Below, piece by piece: positions 3,221 to 64,000 of a DNA stretch of 64,000 nucleotides. A program made the position numbers and the translations under genes. How positions within the stretch are numbered: the stretch's first letter is position 1; each line of letters begins with the position of its first letter. The notes beneath the pieces are model-generated. The model worked only from the letters and a program-made list of their open reading frames with translations. It did not search any database and was not told the DNA's origin. The DNA comes from Pararhodobacter zhoushanensis (lineage in GTDB: Bacteria; Pseudomonadota; Alphaproteobacteria; Rhodobacterales; Rhodobacteraceae), in contig NZ_REEZ01000010.1 of NCBI RefSeq assembly GCF_003990445.1, positions 62,001-126,000 on the forward strand, in the 5' to 3' direction.

Positions 3221-4996
3221 ATGCGAATGACCACCGAGGAAGCCTTTGTCAAAGTGCTCCAGCGCCACGGGATCGAGCATGCCTTTGGCATCATCGGCTC
3301 GGCCTTCATGCCGATCTCTGACCTGTTCCCCCGCGCCGGGATCACCTTCTGGGATTGCGCGCATGAGGGGTCGGGCGGGATGATGGCCGATGGCTATACG
3401 CGCGCCTCGGGCAAGATGAGCATGATGATCGCGCAGAACGGGCCGGGGATCACCAACTTTGTGACGGCGGTGAAAACCGCCTACTGGAACCATTCGCCGC
3501 TGCTGCTGATCACCCCGCAGGCCGCCAACAAGACCATCGGTCAGGGCGGCTTTCAGGAAGTCGAGCAGATGGCGCTGTTCAAGGACATGGTCGCCTATCA
3601 GGAAGAGGTCCGCGATCCGTCGCGCATCGCCGAGGTGCTCAACCGCGTGATCCTGAACGCGCACCGCCATTCGGCCCCGGCGCAGATCAACATCCCGCGC
3701 GATTACTGGACGCAGGTGATCGACATCGAGCTGCCCGCCGTGGTGGACTTCGAGCGGCCGGCCGGCGGTGCCTCGGCTGTCGCGCAGGCCGCCAAGCTGC
3801 TGTCGGACGCCAAATTCCCGGTGATCCTGAACGGCGCGGGCGTGGTGCTGGGCGGGGCGATCCCGGCCTCGATGGCGCTGGCCGAGCGGCTGGATGCGCC
3901 GGTCTGCGTCGGCTACCAGCACAACGACGCCTTCCCAGGCTCGCACCCGCTGTTCGCCGGGCCCTTGGGCTATAACGGCAGCAAGGCGGGCATGGAGCTG
4001 ATCGCGCAGGCCGATGTGGTGCTGTGCCTTGGCACCCGGCTGAACCCGTTCTCGACCCTGCCGGGCTATGGGATGGACTATTGGCCCAAGGACGCGAAGA
4101 TCATTCAGGTCGATATCAACCCCGACCGGATCGGCCTGACCAAGAAGGTCGCCGTGGGGATCATCGGCGACGCCAAGGCGGTGGCCAGCGAGATCCTGGC
4201 ACAGCTGGGCGATCACGCGGGCGACGCGGGGCGCGAAGACCGCAAGGCGGCCATCGGGCAGAAGAAATCCGCCTGGGCACAGCAGCTGGCCTCGATGGAC
4301 CACGAGGATGACGACGTCGGCACCAGCTGGAACCAGCGCGCCCGCGACGCAAAACCGGCCTGGATGAGCCCGCGCATGGCGTGGCGCGCGATCCAGTCGG
4401 CGCTGCCGAAAGAGGCGATCATCTCCAGCGACATCGGCAACAACTGCGCCATCGGCAACGCCTATCCCAGCTTTGACGAGGGGCGCAAATATCTGGCACC
4501 GGGGCTGTTCGGACCCTGTGGCTATGGCCTGCCCTCGATCGTCGGCGCCAAGATCGGCTGCCCCGATGTGCCGGTCGTCGGCTTTGCGGGCGATGGCGCG
4601 TTTGGCATCGCGGTGACGGAGCTGACGGCGATCGGCCGGCCCGAGTGGCCCGCGATCACCATGGTGGTCTTCCGCAACTACCAATGGGGCGCGGAAAAGC
4701 GCAACTCGACCCTGTGGTACGATGACAACTTCGTCGGCACCGAGCTGGACGAGGGCGTGAGCTATGCGGGCATCGCCAGCGCCTGCGGGCTGCAAGGCGT
4801 GCAGGCCCGGACGATGGACGAGCTGACGGCGGCGCTGGCCAAGGCGGTGGATGATCAGATGAACCACGGCAAGACCACGCTGATCGAGGCACTGATCAAT
4901 CAGGAACTGGGCGAGCCGTTCCGCCGCGATGCGATGAAAAAGCCGGTGGTGGTGGCGGGGATCGACCCGGCGGACATGCGGCCGCAAACGCGATGA
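3221..4996 (+). CDS. xsc: Sulfoacetaldehyde acetyltransferase
   Basis: This 591-residue thiamine-diphosphate enzyme converts sulfoacetaldehyde plus phosphate to acetyl phosphate plus sulfite, the key step of taurine and isethionate dissimilation. The N-terminal TPP-activating Glu lies in DCAHEGSGG. The C-terminal TPP/Mg motif begins GDGAFGIAVTELTAIG and ends at FRNYQWG. IGQGGFQEVEQM and the overall sequence point to Xsc rather than acetolactate synthase. ATG 3221 is preferred over the upstream in-frame GTG-type start because AAGGA lies 8 bases before it and the protein then begins in the normal family register. The stop overlaps the start of the exporter gene (ATGA), and the supporting pta gene is nearby. 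Confidence 0.93.
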   Translation: MRMTTEEAFVKVLQRHGIEHAFGIIGSAFMPISDLFPRAGITFWDCAHEGSGGMMADGYTRASGKMSMMIAQNGPGITNFVTAVKTAYWNHSPLLLITPQAANKTIGQGGFQEVEQMALFKDMVAYQEEVRDPSRIAEVLNRVILNAHRHSAPAQINIPRDYWTQVIDIELPAVVDFERPAGGASAVAQAAKLLSDAKFPVILNGAGVVLGGAIPASMALAERLDAPVCVGYQHNDAFPGSHPLFAGPLGYNGSKAGMELIAQADVVLCLGTRLNPFSTLPGYGMDYWPKDAKIIQVDINPDRIGLTKKVAVGIIGDAKAVASEILAQLGDHAGDAGREDRKAAIGQKKSAWAQQLASMDHEDDDVGTSWNQRARDAKPAWMSPRMAWRAIQSALPKEAIISSDIGNNCAIGNAYPSFDEGRKYLAPGLFGPCGYGLPSIVGAKIGCPDVPVVGFAGDGAFGIAVTELTAIGRPEWPAITMVVFRNYQWGAEKRNSTLWYDDNFVGTELDEGVSYAGIASACGLQGVQARTMDELTAALAKAVDDQMNHGKTTLIEALINQELGEPFRRDAMKKPVVVAGIDPADMRPQTR

Positions 4997-5739
4997 TCCT
5001 GCCGTTCGGCTTGAGCCCCGGGACCGCTGCCTTCATGGCGGCGGTCGTTTTCATCGCCGCCTTTGTGCGCGGGTTCTCGGGCTTTGGCTATCCGGTTCTG
5101 CTGGTCGCGGCGGGCGCGCTGGTCACCAATCCGGTGCCCTTGGTGCCGGTCGGGCTGCTGGGCGATATGCTGATCGGCGTCACGCTCTGGCGCTCGGCAC
5201 GGCCCTATGTGGACTGGCCGACGATGATCCGGCTGATCATCGGCGCGGCGGTCGGGCTGGTGCCGGGGATCTGGCTGCTCGGCCTGATCGACGACGACAC
5301 GGCGCGGCTGGTGGTCAGCGGCATGGTGCTGCTGGCGGCGCTGGTCATGCTGGGCGGCTGGACGCTGCCGGGCCGCGCCGGGCCGTCGATGACCATCGGT
5401 GCGGGTTTCGTGTCTGGGCTGGTGACGCCGGCGGGCGTGGCCGGACCGCCGGTGGTGACGCTGGCGGCGGCGCTGGGGCTGGCACCGCTGGTATTTCGCG
5501 CGACCTTGCTGGCGTATTTCATCACGCTCAACGTGTTGGCCATGGGACAGTTCGGACTGGCCGGGCGGCTGGACCGCGAGACCGCGATCGCCGCCGCCCT
5601 GTCGGTGCCGCTGGTGCTGCTGGGCAGTTGGTGGGGCGCGCGCAAGGCCGTCGGCGCGAACCCGGCGCGGTTTCGCACACTGACCATCGGGGTGTTGATG
5701 GCGATGGCGGTGATCGGGTTGGGGCGGGCGTTGCTATGA
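4993..5739 (+). CDS. TauE/SafE-family sulfite exporter
   Basis: This 248-residue polytopic inner-membrane protein has about eight hydrophobic helices. It includes the family pattern AAFVRGFSGFGYPVLLVAAGAL in the first repeat and FVSGLVTPAGVAGPPVVTLAAAL in the second. TauE/SafE carriers export small organosulfur or sulfite anions. The start overlaps the xsc stop by four bases, which implies co-translation. Removing the sulfite made by Xsc is therefore the likely job, as established for similar xsc-linked exporters in sulfonate-degrading bacteria. Substrate is inferred from context. Confidence 0.85.
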   Translation: MILPFGLSPGTAAFMAAVVFIAAFVRGFSGFGYPVLLVAAGALVTNPVPLVPVGLLGDMLIGVTLWRSARPYVDWPTMIRLIIGAAVGLVPGIWLLGLIDDDTARLVVSGMVLLAALVMLGGWTLPGRAGPSMTIGAGFVSGLVTPAGVAGPPVVTLAAALGLAPLVFRATLLAYFITLNVLAMGQFGLAGRLDRETAIAAALSVPLVLLGSWWGARKAVGANPARFRTLTIGVLMAMAVIGLGRALL

Positions 5740-5753
5740 GCGGGACCGGCGCA

Positions 5754-5818
5754 GGGGGGCGTCGCCCCCCTCTTGGCCTGCGGCCAATTCACCCCCCAGG
5801 ATATTTAGAGACAGATGA
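5754..5818 (+). repeat. Intergenic two-hairpin repeat, copy A (subtype I)
   Basis: Hairpin 1 is GGGGGGC (5754-5760), loop GTC, GCCCCCC (5764-5770). Hairpin 2 is TTGGCC (5773-5778), loop TGC, GGCCAA (5782-5787). A C-rich strip then leads into the tail AGGATATTTAGAGACAGA (5798-5815). It lies between the convergent 3' ends of the sulfite exporter gene and pta. The same elements recur at six other places in this window, and the copy at 63886 is nearly identical. No poly-T run follows hairpin 1. Confidence 0.85.
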
Positions 5819-5828
5819 GGGCGCGCGG

Positions 5829-6698
5829 TCAGGGTTTGTTAACCATGGTCAGGGTGACGAGGGTGGCGGCAACAATGTCCGCGACGGTTGCCCCGCGCGA
5901 CAGGTCGCAGATCGGTTTGGCGAAGCCTTGCAGGAAGGGGCCCAGCGCCTGCGCGCCGCCCAGTTCCTGCATCAGTTTATAGGCGATGTTGCCCGAGTTG
6001 AGATCGGGGAAGATCAGCGTGTTGGCCGGGGGCGCGTCATAGCCCTTCTTGGCGGCGATGCTGGCGTTGAGGGCAGCGTCGGCCTGCACGGGGCCGGGAA
6101 AGCCGGTGGCCTGCGCCGCCGCGCGGACGGTATCGACGGACGGGCCTGCGCCCGACGCACCGGTGGAATAGCTGAGCAGCGCCACATGCGCTGCGCCGAA
6201 AAGCCCGCGCGCGGTGGTGGCACTGGCGCGGGCGATGTCGGCCAGTTGCGCGGCATCCGGACTGGTGTTCACGGCACAATCGGCAAAAACCAGCTCGCGG
6301 CCATCCGGCAGCAGCATCAGGAAAAAGCTGGACGGGGTCTGCACGCCCTCGGCCATGCCGACAGCCAGCGCCGCCGCCTCGATCACCCGGCGCGTCGCAT
6401 TGGCGGCACCCGCGACCATCGTGTCGGCCTCACCGGCCGCGACCATGGCGGCGGCGCGGATCAGGGGCTTGTCCAGCATCCGAAGCGCCAGCGCTGGTTT
6501 CAGGCCGGGGCGGTTGGCCAGAAGGTGCTCGACATAGGCCTCGGCCGGGCGCGCGTCGGCCAGCGTCACCACCTGCGCCAGACCCTCGCTCTGCAACCGG
6601 GCGGCGGCCTGCGCGATGCGCGGGTCGTCCATCTCGGGCAGCACGACGCGGAACTGCCCGGCGCGCGCCGTAGCAAGGGCCTGATCCAGAACGCTCAT
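5829..6698 (-). CDS. pta: Phosphate acetyltransferase
   Basis: This 289-residue protein consists only of the PTA_PTB catalytic domain, the short form found with xsc, not the roughly 700-residue enterobacterial form. It converts acetyl phosphate to acetyl-CoA. Recognisable segments are ADTMVAGAANATRRVIEAA and FADCAVNTSPDAAQLADIA, and the C-terminus carries the family's LIFPDLNSGNIAYKLMQ. ATG 6698 has GGAGG seven bases upstream and is preferred to the ATG at 6710. The gene converges on xsc-exporter and is divergent from citrate synthase with only 38 bases between starts, which suggests coordinated control of the pathway that consumes Xsc's acetyl phosphate. Confidence 0.93.
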   Translation of the reverse strand: MSVLDQALATARAGQFRVVLPEMDDPRIAQAAARLQSEGLAQVVTLADARPAEAYVEHLLANRPGLKPALALRMLDKPLIRAAAMVAAGEADTMVAGAANATRRVIEAAALAVGMAEGVQTPSSFFLMLLPDGRELVFADCAVNTSPDAAQLADIARASATTARGLFGAAHVALLSYSTGASGAGPSVDTVRAAAQATGFPGPVQADAALNASIAAKKGYDAPPANTLIFPDLNSGNIAYKLMQELGGAQALGPFLQGFAKPICDLSRGATVADIVAATLVTLTMVNKP

Positions 6699-6736
6699 TT
6701 TATCCTCCACGCCATGTTCACCGGGAGACTGCCGAT

Positions 6737-10473: not shown

Positions 10474-11580
10474 ATGGATCGTCGCTCATTCCTGCGGACG
10501 TCGACTGTCGGCGGCGCCGCTGCGGCAGCCAGCACGTTGGCAGCCCCCGCGATTGCGCAAGGCCGCATCACCTGGCGCATGGTCACGACGTGGCCGCGCA
10601 ACTTCCCCGGTCTGGGCGTGGGCGCACAGCGCCTTGCCGACCGGATCACCGCCGCGTCGGATGGCCAGCTGACCGTCGAGGTGTTCTCGGCCGGTGAGAT
10701 GGTGCCTGCGCTGCAATCGCTGGACGCGGTCATCGACGGCACCGCCGAGATGAGCCACGGCGCTGCCTATTACTGGCAGAACAAGTCCACCGCGCTGTCG
10801 TTCTTCACCGGTGTGCCCTTCGGCATGACCTCGCGTGAACTGACCGCATGGGTCCGCTATCTGGGCGGTCAGGAACTGTGGGACGAGGTCTATGACCAGT
10901 TCGGCGTTCAGGGCTTCCTGTCGGGCGACACTGGCACGCAGACGGGCGGCTGGTTCAAGAACGAACTGACCTCGCTGGCCGACATTCAGGGCATGCGCTT
11001 CCGCACGCCGGGTCTGGGCGGTCAGGTCTGGCAGCGCATGGGCGCGTCGGTCACCAACATGGCTGGCGGCGAGATCTTCCAGGCGCTGCAATCGGGTGCG
11101 CTGGACGCGGCTGAATTCGTCGGACCGTACAACGATCTGGCGCTGGGCTTCTATCAGGTCTGCCAGCACTACTATACCTCGTCGTTCAACGAGCCGGGTC
11201 TGGCCACCGAGATCGTCGTGGACAAGGCCAAGTATCAGGCCCTGCCCGCAAACCTGCAGGCCATCGTCAAGGACGTGGCGCAGGCCGAGTACGATCAGGT
11301 TGCCTCGGACTTCTACGCCAACGACCCGCGCGCCCTGCGTACGCTGGTCGAGGATCACGGCGTCATCCTGCACTCGGAATTCCCCGACGACATCATGCAG
11401 GCCGCTGCCGATGCCGCCAAGGAAGTGCTGGGTGGCGTGATCAACTCGGATGACGACCTGACCAGCCGCGTCGGTCAGAGCTTCCTTGACGCCGTGCGCC
11501 TGCTGCGCACCCGGACCGAGGGCACCGATCAGGTGTTCACCACGGCCCGCTCGCGCTTCATGGACTACTCGGACCTCTGA
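10474..11580 (+). CDS. TRAP transporter substrate-binding protein (TakP-like)
   Basis: This 368-residue DctP-family binding protein has a Tat-type signal at residues 1-30 (MDRRSFLRTSTVGGAAAAAS, processed near AIAQG). The mature start WRMVTTWPRNFPGLGVGAQ and the segment VEVFSAGEMVPALQSLDAV resemble TakP, the alpha-keto acid binder of Rhodobacter sphaeroides, and related mannitol/chloroaromatic-type TRAP proteins. An alpha-keto or hydroxy acid ligand is therefore a fair guess, but not proven. ATG 10474 has AGGGAGG six bases upstream. The frame remains open upstream to 10348 but lacks a signal-compatible start. Both membrane subunits follow. Confidence 0.9.
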   Translation: MDRRSFLRTSTVGGAAAAASTLAAPAIAQGRITWRMVTTWPRNFPGLGVGAQRLADRITAASDGQLTVEVFSAGEMVPALQSLDAVIDGTAEMSHGAAYYWQNKSTALSFFTGVPFGMTSRELTAWVRYLGGQELWDEVYDQFGVQGFLSGDTGTQTGGWFKNELTSLADIQGMRFRTPGLGGQVWQRMGASVTNMAGGEIFQALQSGALDAAEFVGPYNDLALGFYQVCQHYYTSSFNEPGLATEIVVDKAKYQALPANLQAIVKDVAQAEYDQVASDFYANDPRALRTLVEDHGVILHSEFPDDIMQAAADAAKEVLGGVINSDDDLTSRVGQSFLDAVRLLRTRTEGTDQVFTTARSRFMDYSDL

Positions 11581-24220: not shown

Positions 24221-25567
24221 ATGGCGACGAAGAAGAAGTACAAGCAGAAGATCCAAAAGTGGAAGTCCCGCGCCAAGGCTTTGAAAACGCGCCTTGCCAC
24301 GGTGCCGGTTGCTGCCCCAGCGACCAAAGTGACCGTCGTCTCGCCGCTGGCCCCCAAGAACGGCTTCCCCATGCTGCCCGCCATCGCCGGCGTCGAGTTC
24401 GCCACCGCACAGGCCGGCGTGCGCTACAAGAACCGCACCGATGTGATGCTGGCGCGCCTTGCGCCCGGCTCGGTCGTCGCGGGCACCTTTACCCGCTCGG
24501 CCACCCGCTCGGCGGCAGTGCTCGATTGTCAGGCCAAGGTCGGCGTCACCGACGGGGCGGATCAGGGCGCGGCCATTCTGGTGAACTCGGGCAATTCCAA
24601 TGCGTTCACCGGCGCGCGCGGCTGGACATCGGTCAACGCGCTGTCGGCCTCGGTCGCGGCCAAGCTGGGCCTGCCTGAATCGCGCGTCTTCACGTCTTCG
24701 ACGGGCGTGATCGGCGAACCGCTGCCGCATGAGCGCATCGATGCGGCGCTGGACGCGCTGGTCGATGGTCTGTCGCCTGACGGTATCCCCGATGCTGCCC
24801 GCGCCATCATGACGACCGACACCTACCCGAAGGGCGCGATGGCCGAGGTCGAGATCGGCGGCCAGACCGTGCGCATCGCCGGGATCGCCAAAGGCTCGGG
24901 CATGATCGCGCCGGATATGGCGACGATGCTGGTCTATATCTTCACCGACGTGAAGATCGCCCAGAAGGCGCTGCAAACCGTTGTCAGCCGCCTGACCGAC
25001 CGCAGCTTCAACTGCATCACCGTCGACAGCGACACCTCGACCTCGGACACGCTGCTGATCGCGGCGACGGGTCAGGGTCCGGCGCTGACCAACATGCGCT
25101 CGGCCGAGGCCAAGGCCTTCGAGCGCGCGCTCGGCGACGTGATGATGAACCTTGCGCATCAGGTCGTGCGCGACGGTGAAGGGGCAACCAAGTTCGTCGG
25201 CATCACCGTCAGCGGCGCCCAAAGCAACGAAGACGCCAAGCTGTGCGCGCTCAGCATCGCCAACTCGCCGCTGGTCAAGACCGCGCTGGCGGGCGAAGAT
25301 CCGAACTGGGGCCGCATCGTCGCCGCCGTCGGCAAATCCGGCGCGGCGGCTGACCGGGACCGGCTGGGCATCACGTTTGGCGACATCACCGTGGCCTCGG
25401 GCGGTCTGGTCGATCCGGGCTACAAGGAAGCCGAAGGCGCGGCCTATATGAAAAACCCCGAGCTTGAGATCGGCGTCGATCTGGGGCTGGGCAAAGGCAC
25501 CGCCAAGGTCTGGACCTGCGATCTGACCCACCGCTATATCGACATCAACGCCGATTACCGCTCGTAA
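24221..25567 (+). CDS. argJ: Glutamate N-acetyltransferase / amino-acid acetyltransferase ArgJ
   Basis: This 448-residue bifunctional enzyme transfers acetyl from N-acetylornithine to glutamate in the cyclic arginine pathway. The self-cleavage site is in APDMATMLVYIF, with Thr235 becoming the N-terminal nucleophile of the beta chain. SGNSNAFTG and SSTGVIGEPLP are standard family segments. The first ~35 residues are an unusual Lys-rich extension (MATKKKYKQKIQKWKSRAK) ahead of the normal start around TVVSPLAPKNGFP. The ATG at 24221 has AGGAG nine bases upstream, so the extension is probably translated. Confidence 0.95.
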   Translation: MATKKKYKQKIQKWKSRAKALKTRLATVPVAAPATKVTVVSPLAPKNGFPMLPAIAGVEFATAQAGVRYKNRTDVMLARLAPGSVVAGTFTRSATRSAAVLDCQAKVGVTDGADQGAAILVNSGNSNAFTGARGWTSVNALSASVAAKLGLPESRVFTSSTGVIGEPLPHERIDAALDALVDGLSPDGIPDAARAIMTTDTYPKGAMAEVEIGGQTVRIAGIAKGSGMIAPDMATMLVYIFTDVKIAQKALQTVVSRLTDRSFNCITVDSDTSTSDTLLIAATGQGPALTNMRSAEAKAFERALGDVMMNLAHQVVRDGEGATKFVGITVSGAQSNEDAKLCALSIANSPLVKTALAGEDPNWGRIVAAVGKSGAAADRDRLGITFGDITVASGGLVDPGYKEAEGAAYMKNPELEIGVDLGLGKGTAKVWTCDLTHRYIDINADYRS

Positions 25568-25600: not shown

Positions 25601-25653
25601 ATCATCTTGTCGCAAATACTCTCGGGGGGTCCGGGGGGCTGAAGGCCCCCCGG
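25601..25653 (-). repeat. Intergenic hairpin repeat, copy B (inverted)
   Basis: Read on the minus strand this is GGGGGGC, loop CTTCA, GCCCCCC, then CCCCCC and the tail GAGAGTATTTGCGACAAGATGA. It sits between argJ and the mutT homologue. Relative to copy A the tail is divergent (AGTATTT for GGATATTT, GACAAGA for GACAGA) but has the same order and spacing. It lacks the second hairpin. Confidence 0.7.
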
Positions 25654-25675: not shown

Positions 25676-26074
25676 ATGAAAATCGTCCTCGTCTCCGCCG
25701 TCGCGCTGATCGACGCCGATGGTCGCGTGCTTCTGGCCCAGCGACCGGCGGGCAAATCCATGGCCGGGCTGTGGGAGTTTCCCGGCGGCAAGGTCGAACC
25801 CGGCGAGTCGCCGGAAGCCGCGCTGATCCGCGAGCTGCATGAGGAACTTGGCATCAACACCTGGGCATCGTGCCTGGCACCGCTGACCTTTGCCAGCCAC
25901 GCCTACCCGGAATTTCACCTGCTGATGCCCCTCTTCGCCTGCCGTCGCTGGGAGGGAATCGCCACCCCGCAAGAGGGGCAGGTCCTGAAATGGGTCCGTG
26001 CCGACGCGCTGCGCGAGTATCCGATGCCACCGGCAGATATCCCGCTCATCCCCATCTTGCGCGACTGGCTTTGA
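25676..26074 (+). CDS. mutT: MutT-type 8-oxo-dGTP diphosphatase
   Basis: This 132-residue Nudix hydrolase contains the complete Nudix box GGKVEPGESPEAALIREL continuing HEELGI at residues about 37-59. It also has the MutT-like LLAQRPAGKSMAGLWEFPGG upstream, and ends IPILRDWL as MutT proteins of this group do. The role is removal of oxidised guanine nucleotides, inferred from similarity. ATG 25676 is 13 bases after a CCGGAGATC ribosome site. It is separated from argJ by repeat copy B. Confidence 0.9.
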   Translation: MKIVLVSAVALIDADGRVLLAQRPAGKSMAGLWEFPGGKVEPGESPEAALIRELHEELGINTWASCLAPLTFASHAYPEFHLLMPLFACRRWEGIATPQEGQVLKWVRADALREYPMPPADIPLIPILRDWL

Positions 26075-26492: not shown

Positions 26493-27689
26493 ATGCCTAC
26501 CGATTTCGCCGCCACCCGCGCTCAGTTCGACCTGCCTGAGGGGATCTTGTATCTCGACGGCAATTCTCTGGGCCCCCTGCCGCGAAACGTCGCCGAACGG
26601 CTTGCCCGGACAGTGACGCAGGAATGGGGCACGATGCTGATCACCGGCTGGAACAAGGCCGGCTGGATGGACCTGCCCACGCGCATCGGTGACCGCATCG
26701 CGCGGATCATCGGCGCCGAAGCCGGTCATGTGGTGCTGGGCGACACGCTGTCGATCAAGGTCTATCAGGCGCTGGCCTCGGCGCTTGAGATGAACCCCAG
26801 GCGCAAGGTAATCCTGTCGGACACCGGCAACTTCCCGTCGGATCTTTACATGGCCGAAGGGCTGTGCCGGACGCTGGGCGACGGATATGAGCTGCGCACC
26901 GTCGCGCCCGAAGAGGTCGCTGACGCCATCGACGACAGCGTCGCCGTGCTGATGCTGACCGAGGTCGACTACCGCACCGGCCGCCGCCACGACATGCCCG
27001 CGCTGACCGCAAAGGCCCACGACGTCGGCGCGCTGGCGATCTGGGATCTGGCGCATTCGGCCGGGGCGACGGATGTTAAAGTCGCCGAGGGCGGCGCGGA
27101 TTTCGCGGTTGGTTGCACGTACAAATACCTTAATTCCGGCCCCGGTGGCCCGGCCTTCATCTATGTCGCGCCGCGCCATGCCGAGACCGTGCGCCCGGCG
27201 CTGTCGGGCTGGATGGGACACGAGGCACCCTTTGCCTTTGACCTGAGCTATCGCCCCGGCAGCGGCATTGAGCGCATGCGCGTCGGCACCCCGCCGATCC
27301 TGCAACTGGCGGCGCTGGACGCCGCGCTGGATGTCTGGGAGGGCGTCGAGATCGCCGACCTGCGCGCCCGCTCGATCGAGTTGTGCGAGGCCTTCATCGC
27401 CGGTGTCGAGGCGCGCTGCCCGATGCTGACGCTGGGCTCGCCCCGCGATCCGCGGCAGCGCGGCAGTCAGGTGAGCTTCCGCCACCCCGAAGGCTACGCG
27501 ATCATGCAGGCGCTGATCGCGCGCGGCGTGATCGGCGATTTCCGCGCGCCGGACGTGCTGCGCTTTGGCTTCACGCCGCTCTATATCGGGCTGGACGAGG
27601 TCAATGCCGCGGTCGGGATACTGGCCGAGATCATGGCAACGGATGCCTGGGACACGCCGGAATTCAAGACCCGGGCGAAAGTGACATGA
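26493..27689 (+). CDS. kynU: Kynureninase
   Basis: This 398-residue PLP enzyme cleaves kynurenine to anthranilate and alanine. The N-terminal YLDGNSLGPLPRNVAERLAR is diagnostic. The aldimine Lys is in FAVGCTYKYLNSGPGGPAF, and the PLP-contacting Asp in AIWDLAHSAG. ATG 26493 has AAGGGAG nine bases upstream; an upstream TTG is not credible. The companion tryptophan 2,3-dioxygenase gene follows 281 bases later, but kynurenine formamidase, the middle step, is not in this window. Confidence 0.96.
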   Translation: MPTDFAATRAQFDLPEGILYLDGNSLGPLPRNVAERLARTVTQEWGTMLITGWNKAGWMDLPTRIGDRIARIIGAEAGHVVLGDTLSIKVYQALASALEMNPRRKVILSDTGNFPSDLYMAEGLCRTLGDGYELRTVAPEEVADAIDDSVAVLMLTEVDYRTGRRHDMPALTAKAHDVGALAIWDLAHSAGATDVKVAEGGADFAVGCTYKYLNSGPGGPAFIYVAPRHAETVRPALSGWMGHEAPFAFDLSYRPGSGIERMRVGTPPILQLAALDAALDVWEGVEIADLRARSIELCEAFIAGVEARCPMLTLGSPRDPRQRGSQVSFRHPEGYAIMQALIARGVIGDFRAPDVLRFGFTPLYIGLDEVNAAVGILAEIMATDAWDTPEFKTRAKVT

Positions 27690-27706: not shown

Positions 27707-27836
27707 GGGGGGGCTGCTCGCCCCCCCGTCGCCATTGTCTCTCGGACCAATGGCGTTCCAATGGCGACCCCCTCGCCCAAGGGGGACGTACGCGCCCCCC
27801 TTGGGGAACCCCCCGTGGATATTTTCGGACAGATGA
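27707..27836 (+). repeat. Intergenic repeat, copy C (subtype II, with nested insertion)
   Basis: Hairpin 1 is G7C (27707-27714), loop TGCTC, GC7 (27720-27727). Hairpin 2 is CCCAAGGGGG (27776-27785), loop ACGTACGCG, CCCCCTTGGG (27796-27805). The tail GTGGATATTTTCGGACAGATGA runs 27815-27836. Between the hairpins lies a second inverted repeat, GTCGCCATT (27728-27736) with AATGGCGAC (27760-27768), absent from copy D. The whole fills the gap between kynU and kynA. Confidence 0.85.
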
Positions 27837-27970
27837 TGGTGCTGCCGCCGCTCTGTCGGCCCGGCGGCTGGGTTGTGTTGTGGAAGCGATTGGCGATGAT
27901 GGGAAAGTTGAACGCGCGCGGCTGGGCTTGAGTCCGCCCCTGTCCCGTTCACCGTACCGGAGTCTGTCTT

Positions 27971-30234: not shown

Positions 30235-30705
30235 ATGGCAATACCCCTGACGATCAACGGCATCGCCCGCAGCATCGACGCGCCTGACGACACCCCGCTG
30301 CTGTGGGTTCTGCGCGACGAGCTGGGCATGACCGGCACCAAATTCGGCTGCGGCGTCGGCGCCTGCGGTGCCTGCACCGTGCAGATCGACGGCGAGGCGA
30401 TGCGCAGCTGTCAGGTGACGCTGGCCGATGTCTGGGGCGCGGTGACGACGATCGAGGGGCTGGGCACGCCCGAGGCTCCACACGCGCTGCAGGCCGCATG
30501 GGTGCGGCATCAGGTGGCGCAATGTGGGTACTGCCAGTCGGGACAGATCATGCAGGCGGCTGACCTGTTGTCCCATACCCCCAACCCCACCGACGACGAC
30601 ATCGACCAGGCGATGGCGGGCAACCTGTGCCGCTGTGGCACCTATGGCCGGATCCGCGCCGCGATCCATGACGCGGCCAGCGTGATGCAGGAGGAGGCAC
30701 AATGA
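30235..30705 (+). CDS. Molybdenum hydroxylase [2Fe-2S] subunit (IorA-like)
   Basis: This 156-residue protein carries both iron-sulfur clusters of the xanthine-oxidase family small subunit. The plant-type site is [22 protein letters not shown] in pattern form C-x4-C-x2-C-xn-C, and the C-terminal site is [11 protein letters not shown] followed by [11 protein letters not shown]. It passes electrons from the Moco subunit. It is coupled to the large subunit by an ATGA overlap (30702-30705). The lack of an FAD subunit gene matches isoquinoline 1-oxidoreductase-like two-subunit enzymes, where a cytochrome or quinone system probably accepts electrons. Confidence 0.92.
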
Positions 30706-32933
30706 GCCGTCTGGGAAAAGTCACCCGCCGGGCGTTTCTGATCGGCAGCGCAGCCGTTGCCGGGGGCGTCGCCTTTGGCGTCTACGCGGTCACGCGCCCC
30801 GCCGAGAACCCGCTGCACCCGCGCGAGGGCGCAACACTCAATCCCTATCTGATCATCGACGCTGAGGGCATCACGGTGGTCACTGGCCGGGCCGAAATGG
30901 GTCAGGGCGCGCAGACAACGCTGGCGGCCTGTCTGGCGGAAGAGCTGGATGTCGACTGGGATAGCGTCCGACTGATGCACGGGCCTAAGGCGGCGGCCTA
31001 TTACAACGGGGCGATGCTGGAAGGGGTGCTTCCCGGTCCGGATTACGCGCGACCCGACTGGCAGCGCTCATTGGGTGAGACGCTGGGCGTAATCGCCAAA
31101 CCGCTGGGCGTGCAGGTGACCGGCGGCTCGACCAGCATGCGTGACGGCTACGAGCGGTTGCGCCGCGCCGGGGCCAGCGCGCGGGAGGCGCTCAAGGCGG
31201 TGGCGGCGGACCGGCTGGGGGTCAGCATGGACCGCCTGAGCACCGAGAGCGGCGCGGTGGTTGCGCCCGACGGCACGCGGGTGCCCTATGCCGAGCTGGC
31301 CGAAGCGGCGGCGATGATCGACGCGCCGCAGGTCGAGCCGCGTCCGCGGTCCGAGTGGCGGCTGCTGGGCACCGCCCTGCCCCGCCCGGATATGCTCGCC
31401 AAGGTCACCGGCACCGCCGGTTTTGGCGTGGATACCCGCCTGCCGGGGATGAAATTCGCCAGCGTCCGGCGCTCGCCCCGGCTGGGTGGGGCGATGACCC
31501 GCTATGACCCCGCGCCTGCGCTGGCGATTGCGGGCGTCGAGCAGGTGATCGACATCGGCGATGGCGTGGCTGTGGTGGCGCGCAACACATGGGCGGCGAT
31601 GCAGGGCGCGCGGGCCGTGATCTGCGAATGGGGAGAGGCACCCTATCCGGCGACCAGCGAGGGGATGACGGAACGGCTGCTGGCCGCGTTCAACGACGAC
31701 CCCGACAGCACCATGCGCGACGATGGTGATGCCGATGAGGCCGCGGGCACGGTGATCGAGGCCGAATACCGCATGCCGTTTCTGGCCCATTCGACGATGG
31801 AGCCGATGAACGCGACGGCGCTGTTTGCGGACGGAAAACTGGAGCTGTGGTCGCCCAATCAGGGACCGTTCGTGCAGGCCCGCGTGGCCGGTGAGGCGAT
31901 TGGCATCGACGGTGACGACGTGAGTGTGAACACGACCTTCATGGGCGGCGGTTTCGGGCGGCGGATCGAGGCGGATTATGCCGGTATCGCCGCCAAGGTC
32001 GCCCATGCGCTGCCCGGCACGCCGGTGAATGTCACCTGGTCGCGCGAAGAGGACATGACGCATGACTTCTACCGCCCCGCCGCGATCACCCGGGTCAGGG
32101 GCGCGGTGGTTGACGGGCAGGCGGTGCTCATGGACGCGCAGGTCTCGTCTCCCGGTCTGATGGCGCAGGCGGGCGGACGGATGATGGGCATGGGGATGAT
32201 GGGGGCGGATCGGTCCATCGTCGAGGGGATGTTCGATCAGCCCTACCGCATCCCCAACTACCGCGTGCGCGGCTACCGGGCGGATCTGGATGTGCCGATG
32301 GGTTTCTGGCGCTCGGTCGGCGCCAGCCACAACGGCTTCGCGCATGAAAGCTTCATCGACGAGCTGGCGCGTGCTGCCGGGCGCGATCCGATGGACTTCC
32401 GGCTGGAACTGGTGCGCCCGGAAAGCGCCACGGCAGCGGGTGTGCTGGAGGCGGTGCGCGAGATGTCGGGCTGGGACCAGCTGCGCGCGGCGGGAACCGG
32501 CATGGGCGTCGCGCTGGTCTGGAGCTTTGGCACCCCGGTCGCTCAGGTGATCGAGGTGGTGCAGGAGGGCGATGCGATCCGCATCGCGCGCGGCTGGATC
32601 GCCTGCGATCCGGGCATCGCGCTGGACCCGGGCATCCTGCAGGCGCAGATGGAGGGGGCGATGATCTACGGGCTGTCGGCTGCGGTGCACGGACAGATCA
32701 CCTTTGCCGACGGGATGGTCGAGCAGCAGAACTTCCCTGATTACGACGCCCTGCGCATGTCCGGCGCGCCGCGTATCGAGACGCGCATCCTGCAGGCCAA
32801 CCCGCATCTGGGCGGGGCGGGGGAACCCGGCACACCGCCTGCGGCGGCGGCGCTGGCCAATGCATTGTTTTCACTGACCGGCGAGCGGGCGCGCACGTTG
32901 CCGCTGGAGGGTCAGTTCCGGTTTGTGCTTTAA
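30702..32933 (+). CDS. Molybdenum hydroxylase Moco subunit (IorB-like)
   Basis: This 743-residue molybdopterin cytosine-dinucleotide subunit resembles isoquinoline 1-oxidoreductase beta chains. It starts with a Tat-like signal/anchor ([20 protein letters not shown]), so the complex may lie on the periplasmic face of the membrane. The N-terminal [19 protein letters not shown], central [20 protein letters not shown] and C-terminal [20 protein letters not shown] (with the active-site Glu) are the Moco signatures. The substrate is an aldehyde or N-heterocycle by family inference. It is probably regulated by the divergent TetR protein. Repeat copy D follows. Confidence 0.92.
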
Positions 32934-32954
32934 CGAGTTGAGTCTGTTGGTATC

Positions 32955-33040
32955 GGGGGGCTGCTCGCCCCCCGAACCCCCTCGCCAAAGGGGACGCACG
33001 CGCCCCCTTTGGAAACCCCCGTGGATATTTAGAGACAGAA
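32955..33040 (+). repeat. Intergenic repeat, copy D (subtype II)
   Basis: Hairpin 1 is GGGGGGC (32955-32961), loop TGCTC, GCCCCCC (32967-32973). Hairpin 2 is CCAAAGGGG (32985-32993), loop ACGCACGCGC, CCCCTTTGG (33004-33012). The tail GTGGATATTTAGAGACAGA runs 33021-33039. It separates the 3' ends of the convergent hydroxylase and rsmD genes, ending six bases before the rsmD stop. Confidence 0.88.
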
Positions 33041-33045
33041 AATGA

Positions 33046-33606
33046 TCAGGGCGCGCGCAGCAGGGTGATCCAGGTCTCGCCATAGCGGCGTTGGTCGAGG
33101 GTCTCGAAGCCTTCGGGGGCGAGCTGCGGGGCGTTTTCTTCCCAGACGATGGTGGCGGCGGGCGCGATCCAGTCATTGGTAAGCGCCGAGGTCAGCGCCT
33201 TTGCGCCAAGCCCCATGCCATAGGGCGGATCGAGGAAGATCAGCCCGAACGCCGGGCCCCGGTTGGGGCCCAGATCAGTGGCATTGCGGCGGTAGAGACG
33301 CGTGGTGCCCATCGCGCGCAGTTTTTCGATGTTGGTGCGGATCAGGGCGCGGGCGGCGGCGCCGTCATCGACCAGCGTGACGGTGCTGGCGCCGCGCGAC
33401 AGGGATTCCAGCCCCAGCGCGCCGGTGCCAGCGAAGAGGTCGAGCACGCGCTGGCCCTGCACCAGATCGCCCCATTTGCCCTGCGTGAGCATGTTGAACA
33501 GCGCCTCGCGGACGCGGTCCGAGGTCGGGCGCAGATGGGCGGCGGCATCGCCCGCGCCGACCTCGGCCAGCGTCAGGCCCCGGTGCGTGCCGCCGACGAT
33601 CCTCAT
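33046..33606 (-). CDS. rsmD: 16S rRNA (guanine-966-N2)-methyltransferase RsmD
   Basis: This 186-residue SAM-dependent methyltransferase has the N-terminal MRIVGGTHRGLTL and LRPTSDRVREALFNML, typical of RsmD, and the SAM loop VLDLFAGTGALGLESLSRGA. The catalytic motif is IFLDPPYGMG (DPPY). It modifies G966 of 16S rRNA during 30S assembly. ATG 33606 overlaps the stop of the upstream reductase (ATGA), marking the start and suggesting co-translation. The frame is open upstream but outside the family. Confidence 0.94.
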   Translation of the reverse strand: MRIVGGTHRGLTLAEVGAGDAAAHLRPTSDRVREALFNMLTQGKWGDLVQGQRVLDLFAGTGALGLESLSRGASTVTLVDDGAAARALIRTNIEKLRAMGTTRLYRRNATDLGPNRGPAFGLIFLDPPYGMGLGAKALTSALTNDWIAPAATIVWEENAPQLAPEGFETLDQRRYGETWITLLRAP

Positions 33607-39796: not shown

Positions 39797-39880
39797 ACCC
39801 CCATCGAGGGGGTTCGGCGCGCGCGGGGCCAGCCCCGCGCCCCGCCCAAGGGGCCTTGGCCCCCTTGGGAAACCCCGTCA
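39797..39880 (+). repeat. Intergenic hairpin repeat, copy E (degenerate, no tail)
   Basis: Three inverted repeats are in series: ACCCCC/GGGGGT (39797-39802 and 39808-39813), GCGCGGGG/CCCCGCGC (39821-39828 and 39833-39840), and CCCAAGGGG/CCCCTTGGG (39845-39853 and 39861-39869). AAACCCCGTCACC follows, which matches the start of the tail region of copies C and D but lacks GGATATTT. It lies between the HlyD-type gene and ridA. Confidence 0.6.
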
Positions 39881-63887: not shown

Positions 63888-63953
63888 GGGGGGCCTTGCC
63901 CCCCTCTTGGCCTGACGGCCAATTCACCCCCCAGGATATTTAAGGACAGATGA
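63888..63953 (+). repeat. Intergenic two-hairpin repeat, copy F (subtype I)
   Basis: GGGGGGC (63888-63894), loop CTT, GCCCCCC (63898-63904); TTGGCC (63907-63912), loop TGAC, GGCCAA (63917-63922); then the tail AGGATATTTAAGGACAGATG (63933-63952). It is nearly identical to copy A at 5754. It lies 17 bases after the copper chaperone stop. Confidence 0.88.
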
Positions 63954-63975
63954 TAAGGTTTCGTTAACCCTGTTT

Positions 63976-64000
63976 CATTTTCTGTCTGCAAATATCCACA
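63976..64000 (-). repeat. Intergenic repeat, copy G (inverted tail, cut by window edge)
   Basis: Read on the minus strand this is TGTGGATATTTGCAGACAGA followed by AAATG, the tail of copies C and D in the opposite direction. It faces copy F across about 25 bases centred on GTTAAC. The hairpins of this copy would lie beyond the right edge. Confidence 0.75.

Follow-up and report, generated by a model that had tools for sequence, protein, structure and literature searches.

Much of the biology of REP and BIME repeats rests on RAYT-bearing genomes. DNA uptake sequences of the Neisseriaceae and Pasteurellaceae exist as species dialects, form inverted pairs at gene ends and reach >1000 copies. REP sequences are described in PMC12306157 as extragenic, palindromic stem-loops, 14–40 nt long in E. 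coli, that share a consensus and are present in many copies. For R. sphaeroides, the available sections of PMC7866481 report no recurring MEME motif upstream of differential 3′ ends and those of PMC6238624 describe RNase E sites as favoring AU; neither set of sections mentions the element described here. The corresponding sections of PMC2267715 and PMC2817692 contain nothing on Rhodobacter. By title and abstract, with most subscription journals outside the search, we found no earlier description of such an element in the Rhodobacteraceae.

We analyzed repeats of this kind starting from a 64-kb stretch of DNA (the window) and extended the comparison to the home genome (G000, 4.83 Mb), to genomes of the genus and to the family. 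The elements compare with REP sequences in being extragenic, palindromic and numerous.

Architecture of the elements

Elements of the Rhodobacteraceae share a layout of one to three G/C-rich hairpins, followed by a C-strip and a ~20-nt tail. Single elements are ~50–130 nt long and composites are longer. The tail reads GGATATTT-NNN-GACAGA, then TGA or AAATGA. A tail consensus is present among the elements, while the palindromes have no common one. We use our own labels for the hairpin classes: A and B have a single hairpin after which the C-run is repeated, C has two hairpins, D has a short GCCTCCGGCGG hairpin and E has a G-run hairpin followed by a long hairpin. The copies in the window are listed in Table 1.

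Table 1. Elements in the window, with their parts and neighboring genes (window coordinates)
Feature	Coordinates	Strand	Parts	Neighboring genes	Basis
Element 1, two-hairpin class C	5753..5818	+	hairpins 5753–5771 and 5773–5787; C-strip ~5792–5797; tail GGATATTTAGAGACAGATGA 5799–5818	TauE-family 4993–5739 (+); Pfam PTA_PTB 5829–6710 (−)	sequence, RNA fold, Pfam names
Element 2, single-hairpin class A, second dialect	25602..25653	−	tail GAGTATTTGCGACAAGATGA 25621–25602	antisense between argJ 24221–25567 (+) and 25676–26074 (+), taken from its sequence to be MutT/NUDIX-like
Element 3, class E plus extra three-segment hairpin module	27707..27836	+	tail 27817–27836	upstream 26493–27689 (+), Pfam kynureninase C-terminal domain
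Element 4, class E	32954..33045	+	tail GGATATTTAGAGACAGAAAATGA 33023–33045	molybdopterin-binding-domain gene 30702–32933 (+); Pfam Cons_hypoth95 gene 33046–33606 (−)
Element 5a, class C, left half of tail-to-tail composite	63888..63953	+	tail GGATATTTAAGGACAGATGA 63934–63953
Composite center	63954..63974	.	GTTAACC core; like centers in 20 other composites
Element 5b, right half of composite	63975..64000	−	tail GGATATTTGCAGACAGAAAATGA 63997–63975

The original prediction had placed hairpins with tails at 5754, 27707, 32955, 63888 and 63976 (reverse strand), and all five were found in the sequence. An element is also present at 25601 (reverse strand), as proposed, with a different tail that belongs to a second dialect. 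The proposed copy at 39797 has hairpins and, as claimed, no tail; we did not count it as a member because its hairpins are changed in the sister species G018 and nothing alike occurs at the G003 site. The tail had been written with one free base. This formula is out of register and therefore weak (4 matches at ≤3 mismatches against a chance mean of 1.7), and the number of free bases is three. The hairpins of element 5b fall just beyond the window end and are visible in the flanking contig sequence.

We assessed pairing in the hairpin stems. Stems had been thought constant and only the loops variable, but the stems vary too, with full compensation. In 50 class C elements of the home genome, which comprise 28 distinct inner sequences, 297 out of 297 stem pairs are Watson-Crick (0 G.T, 0 A.C), whereas shuffling the partners gave a mean paired fraction of 0.69 and a maximum of 0.77. 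The CTCACCC subclass is out of register (28/65 paired) and was left out of this count. For 20 elements of other genomes, 113 out of 114 pairs match. Stem-loops formed in six predicted RNA folds. A survey of 1955 pairs contained 4 G.T, 17 A.C and 52 other pairs, and several of its matches are extensions beyond the true stem; the wobble asymmetry was considered as a marker of the transcribed strand and dropped.

A search for hairpin plus C-strip that made no reference to the tail covered 321 kb of the home genome, made up of the window itself and a further thirteen stretches of 17–20 kb, eight of which had been chosen for the known copies in them. All 13 class C matches and all 5 class E matches are followed by a tail; it is exact in 11 class C and all 5 class E cases and belongs to other dialects in 2. 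With a looser class A search, 2 out of 15 matches have a tail. By eye, the 13 tail-less matches are six first hairpins of class E, three reverse strands, the 39797 copy and three others. At gathering scores, Rfam yields only a tRNA in the window, and element 1 has two sub-threshold, chance-like matches.

Elements also occur as composites. All 21 opposite-strand pairs within ≤300 nt are tail to tail, 20 of them spaced 60–72 nt, and 63 out of 105 elements are single. Twenty composites align across both tails and a GTTAAC-like center; their arms come from the same hairpin classes and their outer flanks are unrelated.

Some observations concern element 3. Its 38-bp module is missing at the orthologous site of G018. 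The module is a three-segment hairpin of the form X-X'-X', with the 3′ arm duplicated (window 27728–27768), and is also seen at L067, L085, L123 and L139. A short open frame (MMVLPPLCRPGGWVVLWKRLAMMGKLNARGWA, window 27833–27931) begins at the ATG of the tail itself. By eye, it is open from this ATG in G000, G004, G007, G011 and G013 but not in AAAGATGG dialects, and appears conserved in several genus genomes; from its sequence it is possibly an unannotated small protein.

Abundance and placement relative to genes

The 20-nt tail pattern has 157 matches in the home genome at ≤2 mismatches, and the exact 17-nt pattern GGATATTTNNNGACAGA has 153 there and 161 in G018; reversed controls gave 0. Copies are dispersed genome-wide and are present in many Rhodobacteraceae, which agrees with the extragenic REP/BIME-like family that had been proposed.

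Gene calls were made with a simple custom gene finder and compared with annotated records at a few sites. The intact tail was the search key, so the strand counts cover tail-bearing copies. None of the 105 standard-tail elements of the home genome lies within a predicted gene. They comprise 55 in convergent gaps, 26 tandem sense, 21 tandem antisense and 3 in divergent gaps, against a background of 23 convergent, 91 tandem and 47 divergent gaps >60 nt. The claim that every copy sits at a gene 3′ end is right for the 102 elements that are faced by the 3′ end of a neighboring gene and fails for the 3 between divergent genes. In other Rhodobacteraceae, we counted 37 tandem sense, 36 tandem antisense, 36 convergent and 8 divergent placements among 129 elements, 12 of which have a missing neighbor.

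Annotated plasmids provide copies inside apparent operons. In two Ruegeria, a sense element separates the gene for the molybdopterin-binding subunit of a xanthine-dehydrogenase-type enzyme from the gene for its M subunit, and in Gemmobacter another separates hmgA from fahA; all have tails in further dialects. Among 13 plasmid records with matches, 12 are from Rhodobacterales genera and one is from Streptomyces; two matches (H7 and H12) overlap an annotated gene. Among phages, a single partial match was found.

This placement bears on whether the element is a lineage-specific, non-canonical intrinsic terminator in which hairpin and C-strip are followed by GGAUAUUU as a weak hybrid and antisense copies stop antisense transcription. 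We consider this unlikely. Gene 3′ ends, convergent enrichment and paired elements, each of them behind the 3′ end of its own gene, are what it predicts, yet between tandem genes antisense copies are nearly as frequent as sense ones, both at home (21 vs 26) and elsewhere (36 vs 37), and copies in apparent operons separate subunit genes of one enzyme type or hmgA from fahA. Both points agree with the suggestion, made at the outset, that these are more than plain terminators. Also in its favor, canonical T-run terminators are scarce in these genomes (0–16% of gene ends by class). Because they are so rare, a test of whether canonical terminators and elements exclude each other had no power, and some of its matches were composite centers. 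A second stem, formed by the G-run and the second C-strip, would finish just before the tail, and the two runs are equal in length in 69% of 161 elements of other genomes against 39% when permuted. However, this agreement is species-confounded there and weak at home (58% vs 46%), and the second C-strip pairs with the first G-run in 0 out of 6 predicted RNA folds; we rejected the second-stem model.

Three further observations concern genomic context. Among the 100 places listed of 161 in G018, single elements in the region 0.85–2.0 Mb of C1 are 20 on the minus and 4 on the plus strand; this region was selected once the counts had been seen, and replichores could not be mapped from the weak GC skew, so replication polarity was rejected as an account. 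A gene that we take from its sequence to be an Lrp/AsnC-like regulator (L162, ~10594–11250) is closely flanked by two elements in opposite orientations. Near the kynureninase-like gene in G014 C65 and G016 C300 (L346, L352), long poly-G/poly-C stands at the expected place of the element, and G-run hairpins may break assemblies.

Persistence at junctions and tail dialects

All seven tail-bearing elements compared are present in G018, element 1 included (94–95% DNA identity over one home contig). At 32954–33045, a ~75-bp tract is replaced or strongly diverged between the home genome and G018, and the structure is kept. In G003 (~75% identity), four out of five syntenic element junctions are occupied with orientation unchanged, three of them with another tail dialect, GCATAAAGTGG. 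The exceptions are the composite junction, which is empty, a sixth junction that lacks the neighbor gene and one G003 element without a home counterpart.

We followed three junctions through the genus. Between argJ and mutT, the element is present in 14 out of 19 genomes, antisense every time. After the kynureninase-like gene, it is present in 10 out of 15 genomes viewed, always sense; two of the other five are unreadable because of poly-G and three have other sequence, and four cut or missing matches were left out. After the gene at 33046–33606, it is present in 10 out of 18 genomes with its tail abutting that gene (G005 is doubtful, as it has no C-strip), and the far-side sequence differs by eye from the home neighbor in 5 of these 10. 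Across the occupied sites of the three junctions (14, 10 and 10) dialects differ, with a single orientation per junction. From these sequences, sites and orientation look inherited, and the sequence is not kept; descent would preserve the orientation at a site irrespective of function.

Family-wide, we viewed the argJ-mutT junction in 70 genera of 150 matched. The element is present in 8, home included, and always antisense; two tails are much changed (L203 and L227), and Tabrizicola L045 is an additional case. On an argJ tree of the 47 of these 70 genera in which the C-terminal motif could be parsed, no clustering of the genera with the element was detected (7 changes, a number as low in 190 out of 500 shuffles).

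A RAYT- or IS200-type REP/REPIN mobile palindrome that is still spreading is improbable on this evidence. Copies are numerous, and inverted pairs have near-fixed spacing. Similar elements lie on Rhodobacteraceae plasmids, and presence differs between genera and between G000 and G003, where the composite junction is empty and one element has no G000 counterpart. Set against these are the seven out of seven elements common to the sister species and the four out of five junctions common to the ~75% identical one, which also speak against recent spread as the main story, and the variable sequence of the palindrome. The Y1 (RAYT) transposase, whose linkage had been proposed, had 0 matches to the PF01797 profile in the home genome (99.99% complete) and 0 in 10 out of 12 other genus genomes, a sample with G018 and G003 outside it. 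Y1_Tnp matches were fragments in G011 and a weak one in G010. Finally, GTAG is depleted in the 105 elements (9 vs 49 when shuffled) and occurs 0 times at the stem-tail joint.

Tails come in dialects, two of which are GACAGATGA and AACAAAGATG. In the 19 genus genomes, copies per genome range from 0 to 161 for GGATATTTNNNGACAGA, from 0 to 159 for GGATATTTNNNGANNAAAGATG and from 0 to 148 for GTATTTN1-6CAAGATGA, with reversed controls of 0 in all. Eight genomes have none of GGATATTTNNNGACAGA. Of these, G001, G002, G005, G010 and G012 have 35–159 of GGATATTTNNNGANNAAAGATG, G007 has 6 of GGATATTTNNNGANNAAAGATG and 96 of GTATTTN1-6CAAGATGA, and G016 has 39 of the latter. G008 (92% complete) has zero for all three patterns searched, and the element may therefore be dispensable. 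Dialects are not pure within a genome: G015 combines 4 GGATATTTNNNGACAGA and 0 GGATATTTNNNGANNAAAGATG with 148 GTATTTN1-6CAAGATGA, and the home genome has 153 GGATATTTNNNGACAGA, 3 of the AAAGATG type (the GGATATTTNNNGANNAAAGATG pattern) and 42 GTATTT..CAAGATGA. Beyond the genus, the exact home tail plus TGA occurs in 3 out of 150 family genera sampled, home included, so that conservation of the tail elsewhere holds for the layout and for related dialects and not for the exact sequence. The collection scan with the home tail gave, among the matches listed, Tabrizicola, Fuscovulum, Gemmobacter, Rhodobacter and others; we dropped L034, L042, L043, L071, L079, L105 (non-Rhodobacterales) and L119 (no hairpin).

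The species tail of G001 is found on hairpins of classes A, B, C and E alike (14 elements past the filter, with 10 GAACAAAGA, 3 GCGCAAAGA and 1 CAAGATGA). This matters for a passive, functionless repeat without a reader, whose ancient copies would be kept alike by gene conversion and template-switch correction of palindromes. Perfect Watson-Crick arms with zero wobble, the local tract replacement between sister species and the low or zero copy numbers that the three search patterns gave in some species are all compatible with it. With one tail common to four classes, however, conversion would need to act on ~30 bp alone; moreover, 18/18 class C/E hairpins retain the tail and the same junctions persist over ~75% identity. 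We regard a passive repeat as quite unlikely.

Proposed explanation and comparison with known systems

To account for the observed copy number, layout, stem covariation, location, indifference to orientation between tandem genes, retention in place and dialects, we infer a DNA-level reader, conversion and an RNA barrier. The interpretation that we favor, with moderate confidence and from sequence comparison, is a BIME-like mosaic repeat that is inherited and evolves in concert. Elements at gene 3′ ends, whether single or in tail-to-tail composites, would be passed on by vertical descent, and concerted evolution within each genome would give many loci the same species-specific tail dialect. The tail would be recognized, as double-stranded DNA, by a putative trans-acting protein; copies with intact tails are about equal on both strands, and DNA-level reading by a protein is therefore favored. 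Ectopic conversion among copies may be a helper or an alternative to such reading, and concerted change could come from conversion alone. The hairpins, transcribed in either direction, would be a stable barrier for messages that leave or cross the gene end, by REP-like stabilization or partial termination. The elements may also be 3′-end processing sites or sites for a nucleoid protein, as had been suggested at the outset.

A more tentative possibility, clearly less probable, is that the tail serves as a species-specific address for a putative DNA-binding protein of the Rhodobacteraceae with a role in the nucleoid or in topology at tens to ~200 gene ends. A shift in the specificity of this protein would rewrite tails in place and produce dialects like those of uptake sequences without uptake, and hairpins and tail pairing would be part of the site.

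The elements form an abundant REP-like family whose junctions and orientation are kept and whose tails are species-specific, and no Y1 transposase was detectable in the home genome. This makes it directly testable whether such repeats are parasites or sites for host proteins, and the dialects are natural swap experiments. For annotation, the elements are mistakable for terminators, though some lie within apparent operons.

We compared the elements with described systems. Like intrinsic terminators, they place a G/C-rich hairpin at a gene 3′ end. However, no U-run directly follows the stem, after which come the C-strip and GGATATTT in the standard-tail elements (the tail being the search key), and between tandem genes they show no preference for the direction of the upstream gene (26 sense vs 21 antisense at home, 37 vs 36 in other genomes).

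They resemble REP/BIME as presented in PMC12306157 in being extragenic and palindromic, in having >100 copies near gene ends or inside operons and in forming inverted composites. They are longer than the E. coli units (~50–130 nt for singles vs 14–40 nt), their constant part is an unpaired tail with species dialects and not the palindrome, and no RAYT was found in the home genome. The alternating palindromes at regular spacing of BIMEs are found here in 21 pairs, 20 at 60–72 nt, although 63/105 elements are single. The inverted pair as a unit is shared with REPINs (PMC3116915, in the part available), but here 21 pairs stand alongside 63 singles, with no RAYT at home. Tagged palindromes are also a feature of the GTAG-/CGTC-tagged REPs presented in PMC3733652, whose main text has 0 mentions of Rhodobacter, Paracoccus, Roseobacter or Ruegeria. 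The tag here is instead a ~20-nt 3′ tail, and CGTC, like GTAG, is not enriched in the 105 elements (55 vs 76 when shuffled). With DNA uptake sequences, the elements share species dialects and inverted pairs at gene ends, but they number ~150–200 copies, are attached to hairpins and have a fixed layout.
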